Shown in pieces: positions 2,392 through 32,306 of a DNA stretch of 32,306 nucleotides. The stretch's first letter is position 1, and every line of letters starts with the position of its first letter. The stretch is from Candidatus Pacearchaeota archaeon (lineage in GTDB: Archaea > Nanobdellota > Nanobdellia > Pacearchaeales > DTIR01): contig JACRHU010000043.1 in NCBI GenBank assembly GCA_016211995.1, forward strand, positions 1 through 32,306, in the 5' to 3' direction. The translations under genes and the position numbers were made by a program. The notes below the pieces were generated by a model. That model searched no databases and had not been told where the DNA came from. It worked only from the letters and a program-made list of their open reading frames with translations.

Positions 2392-2490
2392 AAACCCAGG
2401 GGGTTTACATAAAAAGCTATGCTTTTTAGGTTCCCAAAAACCTAAGGTTTTTGCGATTAGGATGCTAAAAACAGCAAAGCTGTTTTTTTC
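2392..2490 (+). repeat. Array of four tandem triloop hairpins in the pdaD leader; the last follows GGATGCT
   Basis: AAACCC-agg-GGGTTT (2392-2406); TAAAAAGC-tat-GCTTTTTA (2410-2428); CAAAAACC-taa-GGTTTTTG (2435-2453); GGATGCT (2460-2466) then AAAAACAGC-aaa-GCTGTTTTT (2467-2487). Confidence 0.8.
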
Positions 2491-7475: not shown

Positions 7476-9341
7476 ATGAAAAAAATTTATTTTATAATAG
7501 TACTGTTTATATTTCTAATTCCAACTATTTATGCAGAGCAGTTCAGCGATTATCAAAATCTTGTTATTAAGACAAATTTATATGGCAAGCTGACTGCTTC
7601 TGGGATTGGAAAGCTGGCTGCAAATTTATCTTTGCTTCCTGAGGAAGATTTAAGACAGCAAGTAACAAGCCTTAAAACATTTCCTCCAACAGAAGTAGGG
7701 GATACGATTTTTTATTCATGGAATACAGATATTGCAGAATTTGGCTGGAATGCAACTGTAAAGACAAATGCAGTTTTACAGGAAATTAAAAGAATTAGGT
7801 TTCCAATAACAATAAATGAGTACCTAGAATATAAAGCAACAAGCGAACATATTAATATAAATGATGATATAAGAAATAAAGCCAATGAACTTGTTTCTGG
7901 CAAAACAGATTTATTTGATGCAATTCATGAAATAGGGAATTTTGTTTATACAAATTTAACCTATGATAAAGATTATGTTGATACTGTTGAGAAAGCTTCA
8001 TGGGTTTTGGAAAATAAAAAAGGAGTATGTGATGAATACTCTATCTTATTCATAGCTTTAGTAAGGTCCTTAGGAATTCCAGCAAAATATGTTACAGGGA
8101 TTGTTTATTCCCCTACTACTTATGGGGGTTTTTTTGGCAATCATGCTTGGGCAGAGGTGTACATGCCAGGCTATGGCTGGATTCCTTTTGATTTAACCTT
8201 TGGACAATTTGGGTGGATTGATTCAACACATATTGCACTATCAAAATCTGTTGATTCAGAAAGTTCTGTGGTATATACCTATCAAGTAGGCAAGCAAGTA
8301 GAAGCTAGCGAGCTTAACATATCATACGATGTAATAGATAAATCAAATCTTCTTCAAGAAAAGCTTTCAATATCTGCAGAGCCGATAAAAAAGGAAATTG
8401 GAACAAACTCTTATCTTCCTTTACAAGTTACTATTGAAAATCAAAATCTTTTCTATGTTCCAGCAATAATATATATCACAAAATCTCCTGGAGAGATTGT
8501 AGGCAAAAATGTTCAGAATATACTGCTAGGACCAGGAGAAACTCAAACAATATTTTTTATTCTAAAAATTCCAGATGAGCCAGCAGGTTACATATACAGT
8601 TCAAATATCCAAGTTATTGATCAGTTTAGTGATTTTGCACAAACAACTATCAAATTTTCAGATTTATACGAGCCAATGAGTTTATCAAAAGCAAAGACAA
8701 TTGCAGCAGAGCTGACAACAACAAAACATAGCCTTATTTATGATGCAGATATAACTTGTACAAAAGATAAAGAAAGTTATTATAGGGATGAATTAATAGA
8801 ATTGAACTGTAAAATAATGAGTCAGTCAAATACTCTTTTACAAAATTTAAATCTCTGTATTTTAGAAACAAATGAATGCAAAACTTTTAATCTTCCAATC
8901 AATTCAGAAATAGAAGAATCTTTTACCCTGCCAGCAGCTTCTGACTACTTAATTAAATTAAGTAATGCAAAATTAACAAAAAGCTTGTATCTAACTTCTA
9001 GCGTACTTGAAAAACCAGATTTAGAAGTTATGGATATTAAAGAAAAAACTCTTGATTATAAAGAAAGTTCTGTAACAACTACAATAAAAACCAAGTCTAT
9101 ATGCAATAATCTTAAACTTAATATAAATAACAAGCAGTTTGAGGTAAATTCCACAGAAGGAACAAAAGAGTTTGTTTTTGATTTTCCAGGTAAAAATGCC
9201 TTAAAAGGACAAATCAACATAAGTGCTGAATGTTTTGATTTAAGAGACAGAATTTACAAAGATGAAAAAACATTTAATGTCCAAATAGAAAATATTCCTT
9301 GGTATGGCCAGATTGTGAAATTTTTTATGAATTTATTCTAA
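7476..9341 (+). CDS. Secreted transglutaminase-like protein
   Basis: Signal peptide MKKIYFIIVLFIFLIPTIYAEQ; GVCDEYSILFIALVRSLGIPAKYVTG, NHAWAEVYMPGYGWIPFDLTFG (Cys-His-Asp). Confidence 0.85.
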   Translation: MKKIYFIIVLFIFLIPTIYAEQFSDYQNLVIKTNLYGKLTASGIGKLAANLSLLPEEDLRQQVTSLKTFPPTEVGDTIFYSWNTDIAEFGWNATVKTNAVLQEIKRIRFPITINEYLEYKATSEHININDDIRNKANELVSGKTDLFDAIHEIGNFVYTNLTYDKDYVDTVEKASWVLENKKGVCDEYSILFIALVRSLGIPAKYVTGIVYSPTTYGGFFGNHAWAEVYMPGYGWIPFDLTFGQFGWIDSTHIALSKSVDSESSVVYTYQVGKQVEASELNISYDVIDKSNLLQEKLSISAEPIKKEIGTNSYLPLQVTIENQNLFYVPAIIYITKSPGEIVGKNVQNILLGPGETQTIFFILKIPDEPAGYIYSSNIQVIDQFSDFAQTTIKFSDLYEPMSLSKAKTIAAELTTTKHSLIYDADITCTKDKESYYRDELIELNCKIMSQSNTLLQNLNLCILETNECKTFNLPINSEIEESFTLPAASDYLIKLSNAKLTKSLYLTSSVLEKPDLEVMDIKEKTLDYKESSVTTTIKTKSICNNLKLNINNKQFEVNSTEGTKEFVFDFPGKNALKGQINISAECFDLRDRIYKDEKTFNVQIENIPWYGQIVKFFMNLF

Positions 9342-9358: not shown

Positions 9359-9412
9359 CCAAAGCTGATACCTTTGGACATTTGCAAGCCCGTCAATCGG
9401 CTTGTTCTTTAT
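9359..9412 (-). other. Two-hairpin 3'-UTR element, copy A (downstream of proS)
   Basis: + strand: CCAAAG-ctgatac-CTTTGG / ACATTTG / CAAGCC-cgTCAATC-GGCTTG / TTCTTTAT. Layout matches 20150-20205 with different stem sequences. Confidence 0.65.
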
Positions 9413-9421
9413 CAGAAATTT

Positions 9422-10864
9422 TTAGTAGCTCTTGCCAACATAAACCACAACATTGGCTTTTTTTCCGCAGACAAGGCATTTTCCTTTTGGCTGTTCTTGT
9501 TTGTCTCCTCTGCTTCCACGAACATCTGCTGCAAGCTCTTTTTCAATTATAGCAGAACATCTTTCTCCTGCTGACTCTGTAGAGCAGAAATTACATCTTG
9601 CTATTTTTTTGTTTTTTATTGCTTCTTCAATGTCCTCTAAACTTTCTGCGTCAACAATTGATTTTTCAAACCATTTATCTGCCTTTTCTTTAAGCCTTTC
9701 ATCAAGTTTCCTTCCTTGTTCTTGTATCTCTGAACTTAGATTTTTCTCCGAAATCTTTATCTTTTTTCTTTCATCACGCAAAAATAAAGTTAATTGCTTA
9801 TTTTTTATCTCCATATTTCCAATCTCAATTCTTAATGGAACTCCTTTCATCTCCCAGAAATAAAATTTTTCTCCTGGTTTTTTTTCAGTATCATCTATTT
9901 TTACTCTTAAAGGTTCTAAATCTTTTTTAATTTTTTCTGCATATTCAAGCACGACTTTTTTGCTCTTTGCATCATAAATTGGAACTATTATAATTTGAAT
10001 AGGAGAAACAATAAATGGAAGCACTAGGCCAGAGTTATCACCATGCATAGATATAATCGAGGCAACTATCCTACTCATTGCAGGTCCATAACAGGTTATC
10101 CAGACTAGTTTTTCCTGTCCATCTTTATCTTTGAATTTGACATCAAAGACTTTACTAAAACCTTGTCCAAGGAAATGCGTTGATGGTTGCTGTATTAACC
10201 TTCCATCAGGCAATAAAGAATCAGAGCCTATTGTATAAACAGCTCCTGCGAACTTGTCCCATTCAGGCCTTTTTAATGGTAAGAAAGGAATTCCTAATTT
10301 TTGATGCATTATTTTATCAGTTGTTTTTATGTCTTCTTGCACCTGAGCTTCAGCTTCCTCTTTTGTGGCAAAAGCATTATGGGTTTCAATCCAGTAGAAT
10401 TCTCTACTCCTTATAAAAGGTCTGGTTGCTCTTGTTTCATATCTCCAAATATTTGCTCTTTGATATAATTTAAAAGGCAAATCTTTGTAAGAACGAATCC
10501 ATAAATTATACATCTGGTAAAAAGCAGTTTCTGAAGTAGGACGCAAAGCTAATTTTTCTATTTCTGTTTCTCCGACTTTTGTAACCCAAAAAACATCTGG
10601 AGAAAATCCTTTAACATGCTGGGCTTCTTTCTTAAAGTTCTCTTCAGAAATCAGTGCAGGAAAAAAAGAGGGAAGATGTCCTTTAGATTGCAATTCTTTT
10701 TCAAATAAGCTATAAAGAATTTCAATTATCTGTGCACTCCAAGGCATAAAAACTACAAATCCTTTTATATTATAACGCAAATCAGCAAGCTCTGCCTTTG
10801 CAACAATCTCAGAATACCACTCTGAAAAATGCTTTTCTTTGTCTATATTAAATGTTTCTTTCAT
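9422..10864 (-). CDS. proS: Prolyl-tRNA synthetase, archaeal/eukaryotic type
   Basis: LRPTSETAFYQMYNLWIRSYKDLPFKLYQRANIWRYE, TRPFIRSREFYWIETHNAF. Confidence 0.93.
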   Translation of the reverse strand: MKETFNIDKEKHFSEWYSEIVAKAELADLRYNIKGFVVFMPWSAQIIEILYSLFEKELQSKGHLPSFFPALISEENFKKEAQHVKGFSPDVFWVTKVGETEIEKLALRPTSETAFYQMYNLWIRSYKDLPFKLYQRANIWRYETRATRPFIRSREFYWIETHNAFATKEEAEAQVQEDIKTTDKIMHQKLGIPFLPLKRPEWDKFAGAVYTIGSDSLLPDGRLIQQPSTHFLGQGFSKVFDVKFKDKDGQEKLVWITCYGPAMSRIVASIISMHGDNSGLVLPFIVSPIQIIIVPIYDAKSKKVVLEYAEKIKKDLEPLRVKIDDTEKKPGEKFYFWEMKGVPLRIEIGNMEIKNKQLTLFLRDERKKIKISEKNLSSEIQEQGRKLDERLKEKADKWFEKSIVDAESLEDIEEAIKNKKIARCNFCSTESAGERCSAIIEKELAADVRGSRGDKQEQPKGKCLVCGKKANVVVYVGKSY

Positions 10865-20149: not shown

Positions 20150-20205
20150 TCCAACCGCATGAAGGGTTGGACAAATGTTGAGCTATCAATCGCTCAAATC
20201 CTTAT
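20150..20205 (-). other. Two-hairpin 3'-UTR element, copy B (downstream of gatA)
   Basis: + strand: TCCAACC-gcatgaag-GGTTGGA / CAAATG / TTGAGC-taTCAATC-GCTCAA / ATCCTTAT. Confidence 0.65.
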
Positions 20206-20212
20206 TGTTTAG

Positions 20213-21595
20213 CTATTTACCTCCTTTTAATAAATTCTCTATAGCAGCTGCAACCTGGAACATTCTGGCTTCTGCAAATGAAGGAGCCATTATCTGCAAT
20301 CCTATTGGGCAGCCATCAATTCTTGCAAAAGGAATTGAAATTGCGCAAATTCCTGCTAAATTTGCAGGAATTGTTAATGCATCGTAACTATACATTTCTT
20401 CTGTTGTTATACTTGAACCAATTTTATGTGGAATTCTAGGAACAGTTGCAGAAATTATAACATCAACTTTTTTGAAAGCTTCGCTTAACTCTTTTTCAAT
20501 AAGCTGTTTTGCCTTTAGTGCACGCCTATAATAAAGTCCTTTATACTCTGCCTTACTTATCTCATTTCCTCCTAAAATTCTTCTAAGTACTTCTGGACCA
20601 GCGACATTTTCTATTCTTTCTCCATATCTTCTTCCATCAAATCTTCTTGTTGCAGAGAAAAATTCAACATAAACAAGAGGATAGTAAGTTTGAACAGCGA
20701 GATTAACATGTTTTAAATCAACATTTTGAGATTTCCATCCAAGTATCTTAAGCCTTGAAACAGCCCCCTCGACTTTTTTTCTTACATCCTTTCCTGTAAT
20801 ATTCTGTAGCTCATTTGAAATTCCTATATTAATTTTTATTTTTTCAGCTAGCATTTCATGATATGCAGGAATTTTTTCATTGAATGTTGTTGGATCTTTT
20901 TCATCTTTTCCTGCAATAACATTCAGCAGCAGAGCAGAGCCATAAACATCTTGGCTGAAAGGGCCTATCTGATCAAGTGACATTGATAAGTCTATTAAAC
21001 CATACCTGCTGACTAATCCATAACTTGGCTTAACTCCTATAATTCCACAATGTGAAGCAGGATTTCTTATACTTCCTCCTGTATCACTTCCTAAAGCAAG
21101 GTCACAGAATTCTGCTGCAACACTAGCAGCACTTCCAGAGCTTGAGCCACCTGGAATTTTTTCTAGACTTGCAGGATTTTTTGTTGGTCCAAATGCACTA
21201 GTTTCACCAGAACTACCACAGGCAAACTCATCCATATTTGTCATTCCAATTATAATGCCTTCTTCTTTTCTGATTTTTTCAATTACACTGGCATCATATC
21301 CTGCTTTATAATTTTCAAGTGTTTTAGAAGCGCAACTCGCAGGAAGTCCTGTAACATTCATGTTGCTTTTAACAGCAATTGCCAATCCTGCAAGTTTTCC
21401 TACACTTCCTTCTCTAATTTTTTTATCCACCCCTTTTGCCTCCCCCAAGGCATTTTTATTTAGATGCAAGAATGCATTAATCTGCCTTCCTTTTTTATCA
21501 TCTCTTTCAATTTTTTCAAGAAACTGCTTTATATTCTCTTCAGCACTCAATTTTCTTGTTCTAATCAAACTAAGTTTTTCCTTTATAGTTATCAT
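20213..21595 (-). CDS. gatA: Asp/Glu-tRNA amidotransferase subunit A
   Basis: Amidase signature GGSSSGSAASVAAEFCDLALGSDTGGSIRNPASHCGIIGVKPSYG. Confidence 0.95.
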   Translation of the reverse strand: MITIKEKLSLIRTRKLSAEENIKQFLEKIERDDKKGRQINAFLHLNKNALGEAKGVDKKIREGSVGKLAGLAIAVKSNMNVTGLPASCASKTLENYKAGYDASVIEKIRKEEGIIIGMTNMDEFACGSSGETSAFGPTKNPASLEKIPGGSSSGSAASVAAEFCDLALGSDTGGSIRNPASHCGIIGVKPSYGLVSRYGLIDLSMSLDQIGPFSQDVYGSALLLNVIAGKDEKDPTTFNEKIPAYHEMLAEKIKINIGISNELQNITGKDVRKKVEGAVSRLKILGWKSQNVDLKHVNLAVQTYYPLVYVEFFSATRRFDGRRYGERIENVAGPEVLRRILGGNEISKAEYKGLYYRRALKAKQLIEKELSEAFKKVDVIISATVPRIPHKIGSSITTEEMYSYDALTIPANLAGICAISIPFARIDGCPIGLQIMAPSFAEARMFQVAAAIENLLKGGK

Positions 21596-22255: not shown

Positions 22256-22312
22256 AGCTTAAACAAACTAGTGGGATTTATAAAAGTTACTTATTAAATT
22301 AAAGAAAATCAA

Positions 22313-22370
22313 AAAAAAGATTGATAGTCAATCTTTTTTAGGATGCTAAAAATAGTTTTCTGTTTTTTTC
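22313..22370 (+). repeat. Hairpin - GGATGCT - hairpin module, copy 2
   Basis: AAAAAAGATTGA-tag-TCAATCTTTTTT (22313-22339), GGATGCT (22341-22347), AAAAATAG-tttt-CTGTTTTT (22348-22367). Confidence 0.75.
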
Positions 22371-31069: not shown

Positions 31070-31114
31070 ATATTTTTTTATTTGATAAAACTTATAAAGT
31101 TATGCTTGTTAAGA

Positions 31115-31228
31115 GCTTTGCACATAACTAGCTTTAGAACAATATGACTTTATACTTATTTATGTCAGAAATCAAAAAGATTTCTGAGCATCCCAAAAAA
31201 GCTTTAGCTTTTTTCTGATGTGCAAAGC
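31115..31228 (+). promoter_or_regulatory. Candidate structured leader of thiC: 11-bp closing stem around two hairpins
   Basis: GCTTTGCACAT (31115-31125) pairs with ATGTGCAAAGC (31218-31228); inside are TCAGAAATC-aaaaa-GATTTCTGA (31165-31187) and AAAAAAGC-ttta-GCTTTTTT (31195-31214). Confidence 0.55.
31165..31214 (-). repeat. Hairpin - GGATGCT - hairpin module, copy 3
   Basis: Minus strand: AAAAAAGC-taaa-GCTTTTTT, G, GGATGCT (31193-31187), then TCAGAAATC-ttttt-GATTTCTGA, the first T shared with GGATGCT. Confidence 0.6.
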
Positions 31229-31235
31229 CTTTATT

Positions 31236-32306
31236 ATGAAAAAAATGACTCAATTAGAAAAAGCATTAAATGATGAAATAACAAAAGAGATGAGGTATGT
31301 CGCGAGACAGGAAGAAATAGATGTTAATTTATTAAAACAAAGGGTTGCTGATGGTTTGATTGTAATTCCTGCAAATATTAGTCACAAGAATTTAAAACCA
31401 ATTGGAATTGGTTATGGATTAAAAACAAAGGTTAATGCAAATATCGGTACTTCTCCTATAAAATCAGATTTAAATGCAGAGTTGAAAAAATTAAATGTCG
31501 CTATAAAAGCAGGAGCTGATACTGTAATGGATTTAAGTACTTCTGAAAATCTTGATGAAATAAGAAAAGAAATAATTGCAAGTTCGCAGATTCCAATAGG
31601 CACTGTTCCAATTTATCAGGCAACTATAGAGATTGGTGGGCCAGAAAATTTAACTTTAGAAAAATATCTCGAAATTTTTGAAAAAAATGCAAAAGATGGA
31701 GTAGATTTTGCAACTGTTCATGCTGGAGTTGTGAAAGAAGTTTTGCCACTACTTGAAAAAAGATTAATGCCTGTTGTCAGTCGTGGAGGATCTTTTTTGA
31801 TAAAATGGATGCAAAAGCATGACAAGCAGAATTTTTTATATGAGCATTTTGATAAAATTTTAGATATTGCTAGAGAATATGATGTTACATTAAGTTTAGG
31901 AGATGGTTTAAGACCTGGCTGCATTGAAGATGCAACAGATAAGGCTCAAATCTATGAGCTTAGGATTTTAGGAGAACTTACTGCTAAGGCAAGAAGGAGA
32001 GGAGTACAAGTAATGGTTGAAGGTCCAGGGCATATTCCTTTGAATGAAATAGGGGATAATATTAAACTTGAGAAAAAAATTTGTAGAAACGCACCTTTTT
32101 ATGTTTTAGGGCCATTACCAACAGACATAGCAGCAGGTTATGACCATATTGCTTGTGCTATTGGCGGGGCTTTAGCAGGAATGCATGGAGCAGATTTTCT
32201 CTGTTATGTTACACCTAAAGAGCATATTGGTTTGCCTAATGAAAAAGATGTTAGAGAAGGAGTAATTGTAACAAAAATTGCAGCACATATAGCTGATATT
32301 GCAAAG
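31236..32306 (+). CDS. thiC: Phosphomethylpyrimidine synthase ThiC, truncated by window end
   Basis: MKKMTQLEKALNDEITKEMRYVARQE...GTVPIYQA...EGPGHIPLNEI...FYVLGPLPTDIAAGYDHI...GADFLCYVTPKEHIGLP; 357 codons, no stop, absent from ORF track. Confidence 0.95.
   Translation, partial: MKKMTQLEKALNDEITKEMRYVARQEEIDVNLLKQRVADGLIVIPANISHKNLKPIGIGYGLKTKVNANIGTSPIKSDLNAELKKLNVAIKAGADTVMDLSTSENLDEIRKEIIASSQIPIGTVPIYQATIEIGGPENLTLEKYLEIFEKNAKDGVDFATVHAGVVKEVLPLLEKRLMPVVSRGGSFLIKWMQKHDKQNFLYEHFDKILDIAREYDVTLSLGDGLRPGCIEDATDKAQIYELRILGELTAKARRRGVQVMVEGPGHIPLNEIGDNIKLEKKICRNAPFYVLGPLPTDIAAGYDHIACAIGGALAGMHGADFLCYVTPKEHIGLPNEKDVREGVIVTKIAAHIADIAK

Follow-up and report, generated by a model that had tools for sequence, protein, structure and literature searches.

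Nested double-hairpin elements in the genome of a Candidatus Pacearchaeota archaeon: a probable family of lineage-specific mobile DNA

Two double hairpins, copies A and B, lie in a 32,306-nt contig of a Candidatus Pacearchaeota archaeon (hereafter the window, i.e. the whole stretch of DNA that was analysed). They probably belong to a lineage-specific family of mobile DNA, F1: non-autonomous double-hairpin elements of about 73 nt that would move as a folded single strand by means of an enzyme acting in trans. The plan of a complete F1 would be an inverted end motif (GWTAAB), a hairpin with TGA in its loop, the linker CANNTG, a hairpin with TCA in its loop and the end motif TACCTTAAC. The genome that carries it (G000; 924,676 bases in 86 contigs, 78% complete) has several double-hairpin families, F1 among them, and the relatives of its prolyl-tRNA synthetase indicate a Pacearchaeota/Woesearchaeota-like DPANN archaeon. 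The mobility of a second one, F2, which inserts into F1, is well supported.

Copies A and B in the window

Copy A occupies positions 9359-9404 of the + strand. In its first hairpin (9359-9377), identified by sequence, fold and covariance model match, CCAAAG pairs with CTTTGG around the loop ctgatac, with TGA at its core. The linker ACATTTG (9378-9384; family consensus (A)CANNTG) separates it from the second hairpin (9385-9404), in which CAAGCC and GGCTTG enclose the loop cgTCAATC. Copy B (20151-20197, + strand) is built in the same way: CCAACC-gcatgaag-GGTTGG (20151-20170, also matched by the model), the linker ACAAATG (20171-20177) and TTGAGC-taTCAATC-GCTCAA (20178-20197). Both copies, each consisting of two perfect 6-bp hairpins with 7 nt between them, are exactly as a preliminary description of the window had given them. 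The covariance model matches copy A with E=1.8e-12 and copy B with E=3.9e-10, and single-strand folding of either strand gives -15 to -18 kcal/mol (z-scores -2.7 to -3.5). The 3' flank of copy A, ttctttatcag (9405-9415, + strand), is, from flank frequencies, a weak form of the F1 3' end motif TACCTTAACAA.

According to Pfam the neighbouring genes, both on the minus strand, encode prolyl-tRNA synthetase (9422-10864) and a gatA-like protein of the amidase family (20213-21595). Their stop codons lie 17 nt from copy A and 15 nt from copy B respectively, as already noticed in the preliminary description. Copy A sits in a convergent gap, also 17 nt past the stop of a plus-strand transglutaminase-domain ORF (7476-9341); since its flanking genes are convergent, it is “downstream” of two genes. 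Copy B is flanked by the amidase gene and by a downstream gene for a metallo-beta-lactamase fold.

F1: copy number and covariation

The layout of A and B is repeated in their genome far beyond chance. A strict layout pattern was found at 4 places genome-wide (reversed control, 0), and a covariance model, R1, gave 44 matches at E<=0.01, i.e. 43 places, one of them matched on both strands; the E-value calibration of these models was short. The two copies first noticed are thus a sample of about 43. The R1 seed comprised four sequences, one loop base having been taken out of copy B for a gap-free alignment; R1 and the F2 model described below, whose seed was edited as well, were both tested on the unaltered genome sequence. 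The copies have in common a first hairpin with TGA in its loop, the linker (A)CANNTG and a second hairpin with TCA, mostly TCAATC, in its loop. TGA is the complement of TCA and CANNTG is a palindrome, which makes F1 as a whole quasi-palindromic; the model matches some copies on either strand.

The stems themselves vary, and they covary. Over 41 distinct copies 99.2% of the 482 cells are paired, against 45-49% when the partner is slid by one column, and 12 of 12 pairs show two-sided changes; these counts were made on a model-fitted alignment and therefore lean towards structure. A MAFFT alignment of the raw copies had put the stems in wrong columns. Variants of the second stem are nevertheless visible in the raw sequence: CAAGCC/GGCTTG, GAAGCC/GGCTTC, TAAGCC/GGCTTA, CTGGGC/GCCCAG and TTGAGC/GCTCAA. 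The contrast between unpaired motifs that stay the same (TCA/TCAATC in the loop, CANNTG in the linker) and stems that change on both sides with pairing kept, proposed from two copies, thus holds for the whole family.

RNA helices under selection usually change by way of G-U. Such pairs number 4 of 478 in the F1 stems; the tRNAs encoded in that genome have 13 of 131 (Fisher P ~1e-6, on a small sample of six tRNA genes from the same stretches), and arms that are so nearly pure Watson-Crick fit a DNA palindrome. In Rfam nothing relevant was found at gathering or relaxed thresholds, in agreement with the preliminary description, which had recognised no known family. Kissing or pseudoknot interactions between the two loops were considered: a few copies have loops that could pair over their full length (ATTGACA/TGTCAAT, loci L048 and L055), most do not, and this candidate was dropped.

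Nearly perfect Watson-Crick stems would also be expected if the elements were once mobile and their hairpins are now subject to arm-templated correction, by template switching at palindromes. The covariation would then be mutational, with no current selection on structure or on mobility. One F2 hairpin that is identical over 46 nt while its partner is wholly different speaks for this explanation as well. Correction of the arms alone leaves the conserved loops and linkers (TCA, CANNTG, GGATCC) unexplained, and the presence of identical modules at loci that are not linked implies that they were copied recently; we regard it as possible, although rather unlikely. If F1 is mobile DNA, as we prefer, the stems would be free to change as long as the arms stay complementary, because the hairpin fold would be what is recognised.

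Genes and flanks around F1

We compared the strands of the flanking genes, relative to the orientation of the element, for the 38 copies with genes called on both sides; the calls are crude, being longest ORFs. All four arrangements occur (++ 17, -- 10, +- 7, -+ 4). For about half of the F1 copies the distance to a stop codon is no more than 50 nt; many are 15-20 nt before an ATG on the same strand and others 15-20 nt past a stop. Several copies at such like distances from start or stop codons may have acquired a secondary regulatory use, effects on neighbouring genes being otherwise, we suppose, incidental.

The preliminary description had read A and B as a shared RNA element of 3' untranslated regions: a terminator, a processing site or a protein-binding site. 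Their stems are indeed stable and covarying, and they lie, with about half of all copies, no more than 50 nt from a stop. We nevertheless hold this interpretation to be very improbable. Among the 38 copies there is no fixed position or orientation with respect to stop codons, many copies stand directly 5' of start codons, and G-U pairs are almost absent. Moreover F1 is confined to a single genome, the loops of other copies are interrupted by large insertions, and it is an insertional sister family, F2, that lands inside F1. A consistent U-run after the hairpins was looked for in the flank frequencies and not found, and the terminator reading was rejected on this ground.

The flanks carry motifs of their own. 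The 3' motif TACCTTAACAA is found in 10 of 36 copies versus 1.5% of random intergenic windows, and the inverted 5' motif GWTAAB in 13 of 36 versus 2.8%. An outer inverted repeat forming a third covarying helix was rejected: the 5' and 3' flanks of one copy show no better pairing than flanks combined from different copies. Lacking mutual covariation, they look like the ends of an element rather than a third helix. Two copies, on contigs C8 and C14, do not differ at all in the 45-nt core; both have the end motifs GATAATG and TACATTATC, and their remaining flanks differ. This pair is the best direct hint of a past movement of F1.

F2 inserts into F1

A census of double hairpins (stem >=7) in 316 kb of the genome gave 13.6 per 100 kb, versus 1.0 in relatives (312 kb) and 0 to 0.3 in shuffled sequences. 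Most of them are F2, i.e. TCA, an A/T-rich hairpin of about 8 bp, GGATCC, a second hairpin and TGA. An F2 model, R3, for which the loops of the seed were regularised, matches the genome at least 148 times at E<=0.01, usually on both strands of one place; this is a lower bound because 150 of 1036 candidates were scored.

F2 occupies 38 places in the 316-kb sample. When it was excised in silico and the flanks were joined, an F1-type double hairpin was restored in 12 of them (P ~2e-7 at an F1 share of 5% of intergenic sequence, of which F1 takes about 4-5%). A few other removals restore another F2-like element, and one of these is in the window, where an outer double hairpin, TCA ... TTCA (2386-2491, + strand), is host to a nested F2 at 2407-2456 (+ strand). 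The latter, matched by R3, reads ACA, TAAAAAGC tat GCTTTTTA, GGTTCC, CAAAAACC taa GGTTTTTG, CGA, and its removal restores AAAAACCC agg GGGTTTTT - AGGATGCT - AAAAACAGC aaa GCTGTTTTT.

Read on the strand of the TCA end of F2, the junctions within F1 fall in the linker (ACA|AATG), in loop 2 (TATCA|ATC) and in loop 1 (GACA|AGC). Thus both the linker, a 6-nt palindrome in many copies, and the loop TCAATC are landing sites of F2, in copies other than A. The target is mostly CA|, with ATA| and one more site also seen; the ambiguity is at most 1 nt and target duplication is absent. Exact empty sites of 20 nt exist in paralogous F1 copies. A relative of another genus, G001, offers the same comparison on a single contig: GGAAAGTTCA-[F2-like]-TAAGAAAACCTTG has the uninterrupted GGAAAGTTCATAAGAAAACCTTG no more than 100 nt further on, the tandem neighbour GGAAAGTTCA|TAAGAAAACC, without insert, representing the empty site.

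As insertion into F1 and depletion of G-U go together with the covariation, the latter points to a DNA hairpin and not to an RNA signal. The earlier view that covariation reflects selection on structure is retained for a DNA hairpin that is selected, or else copied, as the element moves; its RNA part is not.

The direct evidence of insertion, the empty sites, is that of F2, and we infer that F1 is mobile and may still be moving. The mechanism that we propose would be as follows. Each element would move as a single DNA strand folded into two hairpins; an enzyme in trans, HUH/Y1-like in its logic, would recognise the foot of the hairpin and cut there; F2 would jump precisely into unpaired parts of F1 and elsewhere, usually right after 5'-CA, without target duplication. 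In HUH/Y1 transposition of single strands, hairpins are recognised and insertion follows a fixed sequence of a few nucleotides, with no duplication (PMC6006769). It is from this match of F2 insertion to HUH/Y1 logic that a single-strand mechanism is proposed.

At locus L138 of G001 (1491-1600) one copy of a tandem repeat is occupied by an F2-like element, and the other is empty (GGAAAGTTCA|TAAGAAAACCTTG). Targets of the form GGAAGTT..CCA|TAAGAAACC, similar to the G001 site, are also seen at L082 near 15495 and at L096 near 5523.

Distribution in other genomes

In 54 relatives, one of the same family included, the F1 model gave a single marginal match (E=0.07), and no match at E<=0.001 was obtained among the 199 other genomes of the order. 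The exact F1 pattern was found neither in 84,980 species genomes nor in the 2.9 million viral contigs of IMG/VR, collections from which records very near the window may be missing. F1 is a lineage-specific expansion.

F2-like elements have a wider distribution. R3 matches 29 of 200 genomes of the order at E<=0.001, the source genome counted, with multiple copies in G001, G002, G004, G005, G009, G020 and G166. At E<=1e-4 it matches 32 of 378 genomes of the class (31 besides the source genome), across 31 genera; the calibration of R3 being short, lone weak matches in relatives need care. Alignments of F2-like elements from relatives show the same kind of covariation. Two F2-like double hairpins with linkers TGGCCC and GTCCC were seen at locus L101, from a Diapherotrites MAG (E14_metabat.bin.47), which suggests that this kind of element reaches beyond the order.

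Candidate enzymes and known systems

We searched for the enzymes that known systems of this type employ. No match to the Y1 transposase (PF01797) was obtained in the 78%-complete source genome, nor in 5 of the 9 F2-bearing relatives examined (G001, G002, G004, G005 and G197); the 4 others have Y1 transposases. An IS200/IS605 or RAYT enzyme as the driver was set aside on these results. Likewise, with no reverse transcriptase (RVT_1, PF00078) in the source genome or in G001, a driver of that type was rejected. For the source genome neither absence amounts to proof because about 22% of it is missing.

REPINs consist of two inverted REPs with compensatory changes in the hairpin arms and depend on a RAYT enzyme (PMC3116915); their movement is thought to involve single-stranded DNA and an enzyme in trans (PMC6006769). 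The elements described here are, like REPINs and BIMEs, intergenic pairs of inverted hairpin-forming repeats in tens of copies with compensatory arm changes. They differ in that each half is a hairpin of its own, the linker is a 6-nt palindrome, the sequence of the stems is not conserved and the elements nest. No Y1 (HUH) transposase was found in the source genome or in G001, nor, in the F1 and F2 copies inspected by eye, a tetranucleotide guide of the GTAG type at the foot of the hairpins. They could still be REPIN-type elements moved by a RAYT/TnpA-REP encoded in the missing 22% of the assembly: they share with REPINs the two inverted hairpins, the intergenic location, the compensatory changes and a site-specific joining without duplication, and some F2-bearing relatives do have Y1 transposases. 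Given the five F2-bearing relatives that have none and the lack of a conserved GTAG-like guide, we consider this unlikely.

MITEs and PATEs derived from IS200/IS605 also have hairpin ends and, like F2 (mostly CA|), insert on the 3' side of a fixed short target with no duplication. Here there are only two hairpins and a linker, no internal sequence and no partner transposase found; no resident element with matching ends was identified either, PF01797 genes being absent from the source sequence.

For the double-hairpin elements (DHEs) of Allomyces mitochondria, as for other organellar elements of the repetitive hairpin type, movement is reported to leave no target duplication (PMC2800124, citing Paquin et al. 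2000), and palindromes of Volvox are found nested in one another (PMC2670323). As in DHEs, two tandem hairpins with a short linker are intergenic and lineage-specific, and F2 is mobile without target duplication; the present elements reside in archaeal chromosomes, and for F2 both the landing site (CA|) and the ends (TCA...TGA) are defined. Movement at the RNA level (retro-insertion), a published suggestion for the Allomyces elements, would agree with the absence of target duplication, and small hairpin RNAs would be stable. The lack of RVT_1 in the source genome and G001, and a depletion of G-U that disfavours a fold selected as RNA, make it highly unlikely here. GC clusters of yeast mitochondria (GC42) are comparable in being mobile, short and palindromic and in merging with one another and shuffling their modules; the 2-3 nt direct repeats at their flanks have been read as target duplications (PMC4478555), whereas F2 leaves no direct repeats beyond the 1 nt ambiguity. 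Integron attC sites were set aside, the F1 copies being dispersed units of two hairpins.

Since neither the transposase nor the guide of REPINs was found, the present elements pass for full members of none of these families. They are best read as mobile double-hairpin DNA that is nested, lineage-specific and non-autonomous, and that is of a kind with REPINs, IS200/IS605 derivatives and mitochondrial double-hairpin elements. They might instead form a widespread archaeal class of double-hairpin DNA that has no enzyme of its own and moves by no known transposase family, whole hairpins being exchanged or re-made at each move and their pairing being a by-product of copying; to this we attach little weight.

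Small streamlined genomes of archaea of the DPANN type are generally expected to hold little mobile DNA. In the present one, very small hairpin elements from at least two families number in the dozens, and individual insertions can be read from clean empty sites. A survey of REPs in bacteria and archaea contains neither the word DPANN nor the word Nanoarchaeota (PMC12306157), and our literature search for such hairpin elements in DPANN found none. Archaea thereby gain a counterpart of REPINs and of mitochondrial double-hairpin elements, and this genome is a place to look for the enzyme. More generally, copies within a genome may covary without being a functional RNA, and the two cases can be told apart by their G-U content and by nested insertions.

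Modules and further double hairpins

Nesting of hairpin elements in the source genome goes up to three deep. A 46-nt hairpin with a third-level insert is identical at no fewer than five loci, in different F1 hosts, while the partner hairpin across GGATCC differs. The module (TTCCAGCTTTGCTGGA core) is located at C26:8230, C26:18202, C51:7326, C76:9576, C34:4295 and C20:3225, and the partners differ at several of these six loci. Either halves are exchanged or a hairpin can be rewritten as a unit, and the pattern bears on the origin of the covariation.

A double hairpin of a third type, recognised in the census and by its sequence, lies in the window at 31165-31218 (+ strand): TCAGAAATC..GATTTCTGA-GCATCC-CAAAAAAGC..GCTTTTTT-CTGA. 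Around it, at 31090-31240, is a longer element with the arms GGCTTTGCACATA ... TATGTGCAAAGCC and an inner stretch, TTAGCTTTAGAACAATATGA, in common with L088 (5749-5799) and L092 (7281-7330). This element hosts either the third type or an F2 double hairpin at varying inner positions, and is another nested repeat family. Elsewhere in the window (22311-22350) a perfect 12-bp hairpin, AAAAAAGATTGA-tag-TCAATCTTTTTT, has AGGATGC and then the beginning of a further arm on its 3' side, and looks like a further double-hairpin variant. Finally, five different TCAG...CTGA hairpins follow one another within 123 nt at L087 (1814-1936), apparently a pile-up of nested or tandem insertions.
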